Of a stretch of DNA of 64,000 nt, positions 7,153-51,630 are shown piece after piece. The position numbers and the translations under genes were made by a program. Every line of letters starts with the position of its first letter. The first letter of the stretch is position 1. Source of the DNA: Chitinophagaceae bacterium (GTDB lineage Bacteria > Bacteroidota > Bacteroidia > Chitinophagales > Chitinophagaceae); assembly GCA_027486835.1 (NCBI GenBank), contig JAIXOJ010000048.1:1-64000 (forward strand), written 5' to 3'. The notes under the pieces were generated by a model. That model was not told where the DNA came from. It saw only the letters and a list, made by a program, of their open reading frames with translations, and ran no database searches.

Positions 7153-7587
7153 AGAGCTTTGAATTTACTCTACTGAGCTTTGAAATTACTCTACGGAGCT
7201 TTGAAACTACTCTACTGAGCTTTGAAATTACTCTACAGAGCTTTGAAATTACTCTACGGAGCTTTGAAATCACTCTGAGGAGCTTTGAAACTACTCTACG
7301 GAGCTTTGAAATTACTCTACGGAGCTTTGATGTTACTCTACGGAGCTTTGATGTTACTCTACGGAGCTTTGAAATTACTCTGCGGAGCTTTGAAATCACT
7401 CTGCGGAGCTTTGAAATCACTCTGCGGAGCTTTGAAATTACTCTGCGGAGCTTTGAAATTACTCTGCGGAGCTTTGATGTTACTCTACGGAGCTTTGAAA
7501 TCACTCTGCGAAGCTTTGAAATCACTCTGCGGAGCTTTGAAATTACTCTGCGGAGCTTTGAAATTACTCTGCGGAGCTTTGAAACCG
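7153..7587. repeat. Tandem array A: 20 units of 21 bp
   Basis: Twenty consecutive 21-bp units run from 7153 to 7572, followed by a partial unit. The consensus is GGAGCTTTGAAATTACTCTG plus C. Unit length never varies. Differences are concentrated at AAAT/ATGT/AAAC after GCTTTG, at CTAC/CTGC at the end and in the first two bases. Because 21 is a multiple of three, frames on both strands stay open, but they encode only a heptapeptide repeat and look non-coding. The array lies between two same-direction genes, 323 bases after the beta-helix stop. Confidence 0.95.
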
Positions 7588-18046: not shown

Positions 18047-18170
18047 AAGTAGAGGCCTTTCGTTTTTTCAGGGAAAGAAATATTCCCTTCGGGGAATGAC
18101 AATGACGCATGGTTTGAAGGTTTAGACACACAGGGGAATGAAAAAATCGGACAAATTGTCCAGCTAAAGC

Positions 18171-18588
18171 GTCGGAATTTTCTCCTCAAGTGTCGGAATC
18201 TTCTCCTCAAGCGTCGGAACCTTTACCACATAAGCCAGATTGTCAGATTCATGAGTCGGAATCATCTCCTTAGTGGTCGAAACCTTCTCCCTAGTGGTAG
18301 AAACCTTCTCCCCAGTAGTCGAAATCTTCTCCCCAGTGGTAGAAACCTTCACCCTAGTGGTCGAAACCTTCACCTCAGTGATTGAAACCTTCACCCCAGT
18401 GGTCGAAACCTTCACCCCAGTGGTCGAAACCTTAAACCCAGTGGTTGAAACCTTAAACCCAGTGGTCGAAACCTTAAACCAAATGGTTGAAACCTTAAAA
18501 CCAATGGTCGAAACCTTAAAACTAATGGTTGAAACCTTTACCTCAGTGGTCGAAACCTTAAACCAGTTGTCGAAATCTTAAACCAGTT
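18171..18588. repeat. Tandem array C: 20 units of 21 bp
   Basis: Units begin at 18171 and recur every 21 bases; the last two are 20 bases. The consensus is GTCGAAACCTTCACCCCAGT plus G. Across the unit boundary most repeats form GGT-NGAA-ACC, a three-pair stem with a four-base loop. The loop base changes (CGAA, TGAA, AGAA) while the stem is kept. Early units are more diverged (GTCGGAATCTTCTCCTCAAG), and the second half of each unit drifts gradually along the array. The frames it opens encode only VVETF-type heptads, so it is judged non-coding. Confidence 0.95.
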
Positions 18589-32448: not shown

Positions 32449-32697
32449 ATCGAAGCCTCCGTTTTCTTGCCGCCAATTGGATTCATGCTGTCCGAGCCTC
32501 AGATGGTTTGCCGCCAATTGGATTCATGCTGTCCGAGCCTCAGATGGCCTGCCGCCAATTGGATTCATGCTGTCCGAGCCTCCGACGGCCTGCCGCCAAT
32601 TGGATTCCTACTGTCCGAGCCTCGGTTGGTCTGCCGCCAATTGGATTTAGGCTTTTCGAGCCTCCGATGTACTTGCCGACAATTGGATTCCTATTAG
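32449..32697. repeat. Tandem array D: 41-bp repeat with CCAATTGG
   Basis: Five full units start at 32468, 32509, 32550, 32591 and 32632, and a partial unit starts at 32674, one base out of step. Half a unit (TCGAAGCCTCCG) precedes them. Each unit begins TGCCGCCAATTGGATTC and continues with CTGTCCGAGCCTC. The eight-base palindrome CCAATTGG is unchanged in all five full units (CAATTGG in the last), whereas the end (AGATGGTT, CGACGGCC, GTTGGTC) varies. The GC content is visibly above the surroundings. Non-coding, despite open frames. Confidence 0.93.
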
Positions 32698-42238: not shown

Positions 42239-43366
42239 TTACTCTACAGCAGTAAGAGCAGGTGCAAAAGCAAGGCCACGGAAAATGAAGTTTTCACCCG
42301 CTTTAGCCAATACCGTACTTTCTGGTTTTATGGCCCCAGTCCTGCCGCCTTTGTCCGTTGTGGCAATCAATTTCGTATCTCCTTTTAAGCTAACACTACT
42401 TACTGAATAAATCACCGGATTTCCTGCTGCATTGATGGTAGCAATAATGCCACTTGTGCCACCATTGGGGTAGTAGGCATTTCCTTGACCAACACTTGCA
42501 GCCATCCATGTATTGGAAGCCGCATCAAAATAATATTTTGAAATTCCGTAAGAAATGTCACAGATGTATAGCAAATCATAGCCAGTGTTATTCCAACTAA
42601 CGGCCGGGTCTGCATCTAAAAAAGCAAAGGATTGATTGTTGTTAGCTGTTTGTGCGATAACAGGTTTTACGGTAGTAGTGGAGGTAGGCAATGGCTCGGC
42701 GGTAGCACTTAAATTGGCAAAACCAGCTTGCGTATATAATTGCCCTTTAAATAAACCGGCAAAACGGGTATTGTTAAATCGCGTAACTACTTCTTTGGCG
42801 GCACTAGCCCCAAGCGGTAGGTAACTAACATTATTGACTGCTGCCCAAAAGGCAGCCCCATCTTTACTAACGGCAATTCTTACCGCTCCATTTGTGGTAG
42901 TGGTAAATTTTGTTGAATTATCCACCGTGCCATTAGCGTCCACACGGGCAATTACCTTTTTGGTTTCCGCCAAAATACATTCCGCAGTGGCAGTACCTAC
43001 TGGTTTATCATAACCCAAAACAGCAATAAAGCGACCATCTTGCGACAAACTTATTTGTCCTTCATAAGGCACTGTGGGGCTTAGGGTAATGGCAGGTAGT
43101 TCAATTTTTTTAAGCGGTGCCGCTTGATTGGGTGTTTTATAACTAAACTCTAATAAACTAACATTGGCCGAAGGTGCATTTGCCACTAATGGCGTAGTAC
43201 CATCACCCACTCGGGACACAACAATGTTTCTTGAATTAACTACTTGGGTTTGTGCTTGTAGGGTAATCGCTCCAAAAAAGGCTAGCGCAATTAATAATTT
43301 TTTCTTAGACAATTTTACGGAGGCGTTGTAATTTTTTTTCAATGTGGGCAATTTTAAAGCAATCAT
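42239..43366 (-). CDS. Stand-alone exported RVGDG-module protein
   Basis: After an N-terminal export signal (KKKLLIALAFFGAITLQAQ) this 375-residue protein consists almost only of the beta-rich module embedded in both beta-helix proteins. It has VVSRVGDGTTPLVANAP, YEGQISLSQDGRFIAVLGYD, FAFLDADPAVSWNNTGYD, ISKYYFDAASNTWMAASVGQ and FRGLAFAP at the end. The repeated W/Y-rich blades and SLSxDGRxxxxxGYD pattern suggest a beta-propeller. It lacks a sorting domain, so it is probably periplasmic or released. Function unknown; glycan binding is a guess. Its product and the neighbouring 946-residue protein share near-identical stretches, evidence of recent duplication. A direct-repeat operator candidate lies just upstream. 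Confidence 0.82.
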   Translation of the reverse strand: MIALKLPTLKKNYNASVKLSKKKLLIALAFFGAITLQAQTQVVNSRNIVVSRVGDGTTPLVANAPSANVSLLEFSYKTPNQAAPLKKIELPAITLSPTVPYEGQISLSQDGRFIAVLGYDKPVGTATAECILAETKKVIARVDANGTVDNSTKFTTTTNGAVRIAVSKDGAAFWAAVNNVSYLPLGASAAKEVVTRFNNTRFAGLFKGQLYTQAGFANLSATAEPLPTSTTTVKPVIAQTANNNQSFAFLDADPAVSWNNTGYDLLYICDISYGISKYYFDAASNTWMAASVGQGNAYYPNGGTSGIIATINAAGNPVIYSVSSVSLKGDTKLIATTDKGGRTGAIKPESTVLAKAGENFIFRGLAFAPALTAVE

Positions 43367-43409: not shown

Positions 43410-43719
43410 GAGAGGCAAACTTAAAGGAATAATGAATACAGATTCCATTCTGATGCGGATGGGATGAAAAAAATAAAATCAATGTCAGAGAAAAAAAATT
43501 ACTGGGTTTAAGAATTTCAATTGTTGGGAATTTTATTGAAATAAAAAGAGCAAGCAGTATTGAGTATCGAGGTAATCCTTGATGGATGTGTTGCATTAGT
43601 AATGCATACCTCACTATTGTTGTGTTTCTTGCATCAATACAATTTGCAGGGGATTTTCAACAAACAAAAAGACGAACACAAACTTTGATTATCCGATCAA
43701 TACTCCATTTTTTGCTTCC

Positions 43720-44099
43720 GCAAAGTTTGCGGGCTATATTTTGTTTAACTTTTTTCATCAGCAAACTTTGCGGGTTAAACAAGAATTATTTTTTGGCGCC
43801 AGCAAAGTTTGCGGGCTGCTTTTTAATCGAAAAATGGCTTCCGCAAGGCTTGCTAGCCCAATTTTGTTTAACTTTTTTCATCAGCAAACTTTGCGGATTA
43901 AACAAGAAATATTTTTTGGCGCCAGCAAAGTTTGCGGACTACTTTTTTTCCTAAAAATGGCTTCCGCAAGGCTTGCTAGCCCAATTCTTTTACATTTTAT
44001 TCATCAGCAAACTTTGCGGATTAAACAAGAAATATTTTTTGACGCCAGCAAAGTTTGCCAGCAGCGCAATCGTTGTAAAGTGGCATAGGCAATGTTTGC
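43720..44099. repeat. Tandem array E: 11-bp palindrome every 41 bp
   Basis: Palindromic 11-mers of the type GCAAACTTTGC, GCAAAGTTTGC or GCAAGGCTTGC start at 43720, 43761, 43802, 43843, 43884, 43925, 43966, 44007, 44048 and (GCAATGTTTGC) 44089. That is ten copies at exactly 41-base spacing. The 30-base gaps repeat every third unit, so a 123-base trimer is the higher-order unit (from 43738, 43861 and 43984). A possible eleventh, degenerate copy lies near 43678. Many copies are extended by CGG or CCG to 15 bases. Non-coding. Confidence 0.95.
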
Positions 44100-44238: not shown

Positions 44239-44982
44239 ATGATTAACGAAATTCCTTATTACGAGTTCAACAATGGAGAATATCTTGGTCTATTTACAAA
44301 CATTGTAAACGTGAGCAATAAATCCAATCCATTCTTAACAAAGGTTAAAACACAGGTGGACGAGCTAGATGTGGCCAACCTAGCAGCAAGTGAGATTTAT
44401 TTGCCGCAAAAGAAAAGTCAAGAAACAGCAAACGTAGTTACCGAAGATGAGGTTCGGGATGATTTTATCACTGGATTTATTAAAGTGGTAGATGGGAATA
44501 CGTTTCATCCTGACAAGGCTTTGGCTGCAAATGCAGTAACCGTACAATTGTGTATTGAAAAATATGGTCGCAATATTATTAGGCAGAGTTTTGTAAAGCA
44601 AACCAACACCGTTAATAATCTGGTGGATGATTTAGAAAATAATCCGGTGGTAAAAGCTGCGGTGGCAGCATTGGGATTGGGACATTGGGTAACGGCAATT
44701 AAAAATGCCAATAAAACTTTTAATGATACTTATCTAGATAGAACAAAGGAAATTGGCGAACGTATTGATGGCCCATTATTACCTTATAGATTGGTAATTC
44801 AAGAAAAATGGGAGGAATTAGAAAAACATATTAATGCCAACCAATTATTAACCCCATTACCTTCTGGTGAAACGCTTATCAATAGCATCAATACTTTGAT
44901 TGATCAGTATATCACTGCTGCTAAAAAGAGAAAAGCAAATGGGAAAAAGAATATACCTCCCGTAGAACCAACACCTATTTAG
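44239..44982 (+). CDS. DUF6261-like protein
   Basis: This 247-residue cytoplasmic protein has no signal peptide and is mainly helical. It starts with IPYYEFNNGEYLGLFTNIV, a pattern seen in the Bacteroidetes-restricted DUF6261 family. NPFLTKVKTQVDELDVAN, a DGNTFHPDKALAANAV segment and a low-complexity Pro-rich tail (NIPPVEPTPI) follow. Function unknown. It is the only plus-strand gene between 35.2 kb and the window end. It has its own promoter 15 bases upstream, array E before it and strong hairpins after it, so it is an independent unit inside the minus-strand locus. Confidence 0.65.
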   Translation: MINEIPYYEFNNGEYLGLFTNIVNVSNKSNPFLTKVKTQVDELDVANLAASEIYLPQKKSQETANVVTEDEVRDDFITGFIKVVDGNTFHPDKALAANAVTVQLCIEKYGRNIIRQSFVKQTNTVNNLVDDLENNPVVKAAVAALGLGHWVTAIKNANKTFNDTYLDRTKEIGERIDGPLLPYRLVIQEKWEELEKHINANQLLTPLPSGETLINSINTLIDQYITAAKKRKANGKKNIPPVEPTPI

Positions 44983-51404: not shown

Positions 51405-51630
51405 GTCGTTTGCAGTCGTGCGGACGGCATTTGCAGTCGCGCGGACGACATTTGCAGTCGTGCGGACGGCGTTTGCAGTCGTGCGGACGGCATTTGCAGT
51501 CGTGCGGACAGCATTTGCAGTCATGCGGACGGCATTTGCAATCGTGCGGACGCCATTTGCAGTCGTGCGAACAGCATTTACAATCGCGCGGATGCCGTTT
51601 GCAGTCGTGCGGACGCTGTTTGCAGTCGTG
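51405..51630. repeat. Tandem array F: 10 units of 21 bp
   Basis: Ten 21-base units from 51415 to 51624 with consensus GTCGTGCGGACGGCATTTGC plus A, plus a broken unit at each end. Each unit contains GTC-GTGCG-GAC, a small inverted repeat, and ends in TTTGCA. The array is strikingly richer in GC than its surroundings. It sits between the susC promoter region and the terminator of the giant gene. Open frames on both strands are a by-product of the 21-base period. Confidence 0.95.

Follow-up and report, generated by a model that had tools for sequence, protein, structure and literature searches.

An array of palindromes at 41-bp steps

Ten short palindromes stand in register between two genes of a Chitinophagaceae genome, and the question they raise is whether their symmetry is kept by selection for a function in the host or by the way such DNA is copied and amplified. 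The window analysed is the whole stretch of 64,000 nucleotides in which they lie. Exact matches to GCAARSYTTGC occur in it nine times, at 43720, 43761, 43802, 43843, 43884, 43925, 43966, 44007 and 44048, always 41 bp apart, against 0.24 expected; none of 100 shuffles of the window reaches nine. A tenth palindrome, GCAATGTTTGC at 44089..44099, differs from the pattern by one mismatch, so that the ten palindromes and the 41-bp spacing described in the earlier note are confirmed. Tandem Repeats Finder (TRF) reports a 123-bp period over 43738-44058, with 2.6 copies and 92% matches. Degenerate copies continue the array leftward for about 80 bp, with ACAAACTTTGA one 42-bp step before 43720 and ATACAATTTGC 41 bp further; because of these, the array, labelled C93 here, is taken to span approximately 43637-44099.

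All units read on the forward strand, and their spacers fall into three types, A, B and C. The C-type units are unit 1 (43720..43760, palindrome GCAAAGTTTGC), unit 4 (43843..43883) and unit 7 (43966..44006), the last two with the compensated palindrome GCAAGGCTTGC. The A-type units 2, 5 and 8 (43761..43801, 43884..43924 and 44007..44047) all carry GCAAACTTTGC. The B-type units 3 and 6 (43802..43842 and 43925..43965) and the degenerate B-type unit 9 (44048..44088) carry GCAAAGTTTGC; midway along unit 3, the spacer contains a second inverted repeat, rich in AT. The fixed alternation of palindromes reported previously therefore holds except at the C-type unit at 43720, which has GCAAAGTTTGC rather than GCAAGGCTTGC. 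The two degenerate units at the left end (43637..43719) overlap a leader of about 52 bp that C93 has in common with two sister arrays, C184 and C137.

The array sits between two divergent genes, a predicted 375-aa protein with no Pfam match on the left (42239..43366, reverse strand) and a 247-aa DUF6261 protein on the right (44239..44982, forward strand). SusC/SusD-like and glycosidase-like genes, read from translations, lie nearby in the window, as is typical of Bacteroidota. With head-to-tail units of 41 bp, within the 10-100 bp range, C93 is a non-coding minisatellite. Open reading frames of 115-122 aa do cross it, but steps of 40 and 42 bp in the sister arrays break the frame, and we regard these frames as spurious. 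It is not a CRISPR array, which needs unique spacers, since its three spacer types are reused both inside single arrays and from one array to another. TIGR arrays are linked to a Nop-domain Tas protein; no Nop-domain (PF01798) match was found in the genome, and a TIGR-Tas array was rejected.

Six arrays built from three spacer types

The whole genome (6.4 Mb in 219 contigs) was searched by pattern and by similarity. The assembly is fragmented and several arrays lie at contig ends, so all copy numbers are minima. The search for further GCAAASTTTGC clusters proposed in the earlier note returned five sister arrays, which makes a family of six (C27, C30, C83, C93, C137 and C184), all intergenic and non-coding, with no further copies found by either search. 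By pattern, the array is absent from 12 congeners, 48 other genomes of the family and 40 genomes of the order, and similarity search of the congeners gave trivial hits only. A phage or plasmid origin was rejected, there being no match in phages or plasmids.

Spacers of all arrays were typed against the three spacers of the window. Unit order is CACABCACAbc in C27, CABCACABCA in C30, ACABCACABB in C83, CABCABCACBbB in C137, CABCABCACAb in C184 and CABCABCAb in C93, that is, a modular (CAB)n or (CACAB)n in all six. Since the same three types order every array, they predate its dispersal. The history first proposed, in which trimers were amplified after a 41-base monomer array existed, is too simple: three of the sister arrays are CACAB pentamers, and the trimer is one of two arrangements. 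Spacers are more alike within arrays than between them, and the steps between units over the six arrays are 41 bp in 52 cases, 40 bp in nine and 42 bp in four.

The main rival to the explanation favoured below is a binding-site array: dimers of a DNA-binding or nucleoid protein would sit on every palindrome, four turns apart and along one face of the helix, with an architectural or regulatory role near genes for polysaccharide use. We consider it rather doubtful. The near-constant helical phasing of the units speaks for it, as do the neighbours of the arrays: five of the six adjoin a glycoside hydrolase (GH), sulfatase, GDSL or hybrid two-component gene, a count that may not exceed the chance background. 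The gene contexts, however, are mixed (divergent, tandem and convergent), isolated GCAAASTTTGC sites outside the arrays show no clear excess over a rough chance estimate made by hand, and the absence from congeners also weighs against such a role. The domains found next to C27, C30, C83, C137 and C184 are GDSL, GH106/GH31, sulfatase/GH2, GDSL-dockerin or hybrid two-component domains.

Outside the family, GCAAASTTTGC is found as pairs spaced by 27-33 bp in 11 further stretches among 85,000 species genomes and in three viral contigs, the spacers there being unrelated. A 41-bp array of GCAAASTTTGC is also present on two contigs of Tannerella sp. Gsp477_bin149, and in Tannerella and other Bacteroidota metagenome-assembled genomes the palindrome recurs in arrays of 21, 41 and 42 bp whose spacers are unrelated.

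Symmetry of the palindrome

Covariation was measured on 44 distinct 17-mers from the six arrays, treated as a 17-bp dyad, with shuffled and slid controls. Standard pairs fill 81.5% of cells against 76.8% after shuffling, and cells changed on both sides number 27 against 13.6. The covariation score of 0.229 exceeds the shuffled value of 0.147, with none of 500 shuffles as high and slid controls at 0.02-0.09. This supports a maintained symmetry and falls short of proof, because the relatedness of the units inflates such numbers. Compensated changes across the six arrays include A3-T9 to T-A in four units, G1-C11 to A-T in four and A5-T7 to G-C in two. Matched changes in the two arms, which the earlier note had seen in the window, are thus real across the family, but the AAG/CTT case in the window itself is one lineage amplified twice. 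Sister arrays C30, C83 and C184 hold half-changed versions of the C-unit palindrome (GCAAGGTTTGC, GCAAAGCTTGC). It is fully compensated in C93 and, in the paralogous array C137, has degenerated into ACATAGTTTTT and ACAAAGTTTTT next to a spacer that was retained. Decay of the palindrome beside a conserved spacer is what the earlier note named as its refutation, there for orthologous arrays in close strains.

Conservation differs by unit type. Between arrays, the palindrome is 0.94 identical in A units against 0.76 for the spacer, and 0.93 against 0.69 in B units; for C units the values are 0.82 and 0.76, only a slight difference. That A and B palindromes stay near 0.94 beside spacers at 0.69-0.76 is the pattern expected of a selected binding site, and it is a point in favour of the dimeric protein; decay of the C-type palindromes counts against it. 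At the centre of the palindrome, 54 of 58 core units have G or C, which would also suit a symmetric dimer, with at least about eight switches between C and G against at most four changes to T (read by eye).

We favour, at roughly an even chance, the explanation that these arrays are a dispersed palindromic minisatellite, amplified by recombination and locked to the helix, whose symmetry is kept largely by hairpin formation and template switching, and which has no demonstrated host function. A unit of 41 bp, about four helical turns, would have diverged into three types, A, B and C; unequal recombination, with the common 11-mers as natural registration points, would then have rearranged the units into (CAB)n and (CACAB)n, and the array would have reached at least six intergenic sites within one genome. 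As single-stranded DNA, the palindrome could fold into a small hairpin (CGCAA-AST-TTGCG). Template switching within that hairpin would copy one arm onto the other, so that the arms stay matched, and could invert the loop, so that the centre toggles between C and G while transitions stay rare. Both compensatory changes and loop inversions are documented products of template switching (PMC8794818), so selection is not the sole maker of symmetric changes. Selection on the palindrome itself, as first suggested, accordingly stands in so far as A and B dyads outconserve their spacers, and is weakened by the decay in C137 and by a copying mechanism that yields the same changes. The six arrays form a natural test case in which selection and template switching can be set against each other as the source of matched changes in hairpin arms.

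Switching of the centre between C and G fits loop inversion, and is equally compatible with a dimeric protein site or with crossovers within the 11-mer. Loop inversions are also seen in two arrays of unrelated sequence in the same genome, as GTTTCACAA-C/G-TTGTGAAAC (CAACTTG/CAAGTTG) at L088 17478, and as GGAC/GTCC and GTGC/GCAC between TTCTAC and GTAGAA at L198 15471; the counts are small, with p of about 0.04 for the 42-bp array by hand calculation. A second, weak inverted repeat lies near mid-unit in A and B spacers. As a general rule a half-unit palindrome was rejected: it is absent from C spacers, and it is nearly invariant and so provides no covariation evidence.

Mismatched cells of the dyad, tallied by hand, are G-T in 32 cases and A-C in 30. 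A near balance of this kind points to DNA, or to both strands, rather than to one wobble-tolerant RNA strand, and it argues against a transcribed array of RNA hairpins acting as an attenuator, a terminator or an mRNA-stability element. We think that explanation very unlikely. It draws on foldability, which far exceeds that of shuffles on both strands (z of -5.8 and -4.4), but good folding of either strand is to be expected of palindromes in any array. Further against it, the orientation of the arrays relative to genes varies and there is no Rfam match.

Comparison with mobile elements and other repeats

A non-autonomous transposable element, similar to a MITE or to REP/BIME, could carry the palindromic minisatellite internally and be moved by a transposase acting in trans. 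We judge this unlikely. The six intergenic loci do show the MITE trait of a dispersed, multi-copy sequence with no coding capacity, and left leaders are shared, over about 130 bp (about 79% identity) by C30 and C83 and over some 52 bp by C93, C184 and C137. The genome also encodes four Y1-type transposase matches, and MITE-like elements of Porphyromonas gingivalis carry 23-nt and 41-nt tandem repeats (PMC4596501). Against this, the right ends of the six arrays have no detectable common sequence, and their flanks have no common pair of terminal inverted repeats and no evident target duplication; the congeners are too diverged to provide empty sites (full-length GH106 homologues there are about 56% identical). 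The Y1_Tnp genes, on contigs C62, C152, C188 and C110, carry other palindromes (GCCAGTTNNNAACTGGC among them) and none of the GCAAASTTTGC type, and a RAYT link was rejected. Two of the RAYT-like Y1 transposase genes (L190 41-740 and L191 1160-1910) are flanked by GCCAGTTNNNAACTGGC palindromes and also by a longer GGCACAAGTG...CACTTGCGCC inverted repeat, and form a candidate REPtron.

Similarities to REP/BIME clusters are the intergenic tandem palindromes, the mosaic order of linkers and the presence at multiple loci (PMC3733652). The C93 family differs from them in its strict 41-bp unit, in having only six loci and in the lack of an adjacent RAYT gene with a cognate palindrome. It also lacks a GTAG/CGTC tag at the foot of the palindrome, none being seen by inspection of 71 units, where the flanks read by eye are mostly YCA or YCC on the left and GGR, TGR or TAG on the right. 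The closest precedents appear to be the 464/PgRS (41-nt) and BrickBuilt (23-nt) elements of P. gingivalis, likewise from Bacteroidota and likewise dispersed, multi-copy and with internal tandem repeats; the PgRS 41-mer is likened to the C93 unit by description, and BrickBuilt has terminal inverted repeats where the C93 family has no consistent ends. Ordinary bacterial minisatellites and variable-number tandem repeats (VNTRs) are also intergenic, with head-to-tail units and concerted evolution within arrays. The C93 family departs from those in its palindromic units, in the higher-order modularity of its spacers and in a genome-wide lock to 21, 41 or 42 bp.

Minisatellite periods across the genome

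Unit lengths of minisatellites are usually treated as arbitrary. TRF applied to 727 kb of the genome found 64 non-coding arrays with periods of 15-60, of which 42 fall at 20-23, 16 at 40-42 and six elsewhere. As known arrays and contig ends were overrepresented in those 727 kb, a fresh 399 kb was picked by contig position. All 25 non-coding minisatellites (period 15-60) in the held-out sample have a period of 21 (13 arrays), 41 (three) or 42 (nine), with a binomial p of 4e-21 against a uniform null. That null is crude, and a few of the arrays share sequence or adjoin one another, but periods of 24 to 39 leave an obvious gap. Periods of 24, 27, 30, 33, 36 and 39 are nearly absent, and multiples of three cannot explain 41. 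Two congeners have 12 of 13 arrays at period 21, and random pieces of other genera have few arrays. Palindromes are enriched in the 40-42 bp class (Fisher p 0.0045 with dinucleotide shuffles, 0.016 held out); as a property of all arrays they were rejected for the 21-bp class (p 0.47 and 0.59).

Lengths of 21 bp and 41-42 bp correspond to about two and four turns of the DNA helix. Unit sequences of the 21/41/42 arrays are mostly unrelated, and the quantisation extends to arrays that are not palindromic, so the phasing is not specific to GCAAASTTTGC, a point against a protein bound to that site. It is plausible, though we hold it with somewhat less than even confidence, that minisatellites outside coding sequence form or persist in this lineage almost exclusively at even numbers of helical turns, a process tied to helix phase rather than sequence setting the unit. 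Nearly uniform lengths among mostly unrelated repeats make a physical origin testable, either as helical phase at duplication or as packing by a phased protein. C93 is the most elaborate palindromic array seen in the four-turn class. Tandem repeats of 22, 23 and 41 nt, including the 464/PgRS elements, are reported from P. gingivalis (PMC4596501), and given those lengths the preference for such periods may date far back in Bacteroidota.

Other repeats were noted along the way. The window has three period-21 non-coding arrays with unrelated units, at 7154-7584 (GAGCTTTGAAATTACTCTACG, 20.5 copies), 18167-18579 (AGTGGTCGAAACCTTCACCCC, 14.7 copies) and 51409-51630 (TTTGCAGTCGTGCGGACGGCA, 10.6 copies), and a second, unrelated 41-bp array at 32468-32690 (TGCCGCCAATTGGATTCATGCTGTCCGAGCCTCAGATGGCC, 5.4 copies) that is not significantly palindromic. 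An unrelated array of about 41 bp (C32, L080 2987-3400) alternates palindromes TTTCAGAAAATCTGAAA / TTTCGGAAAATCCGAAA with GCCG...CGGC and shows matched arm changes between units. Three 42-bp arrays (L067 1-236, L211 419-864 and L198 15471-16026) seem to have a linker GGCAT in common, with differing flanking stems (CTTAG/CTAAG, CCCA/TGGG and CTACG/CGTAG). In congener loci L103-L121, 14-bp arrays are numerous and break down into heptamers (TAAGTRT, CCTTTAT and similar), reminiscent of heptanucleotide STRRs.
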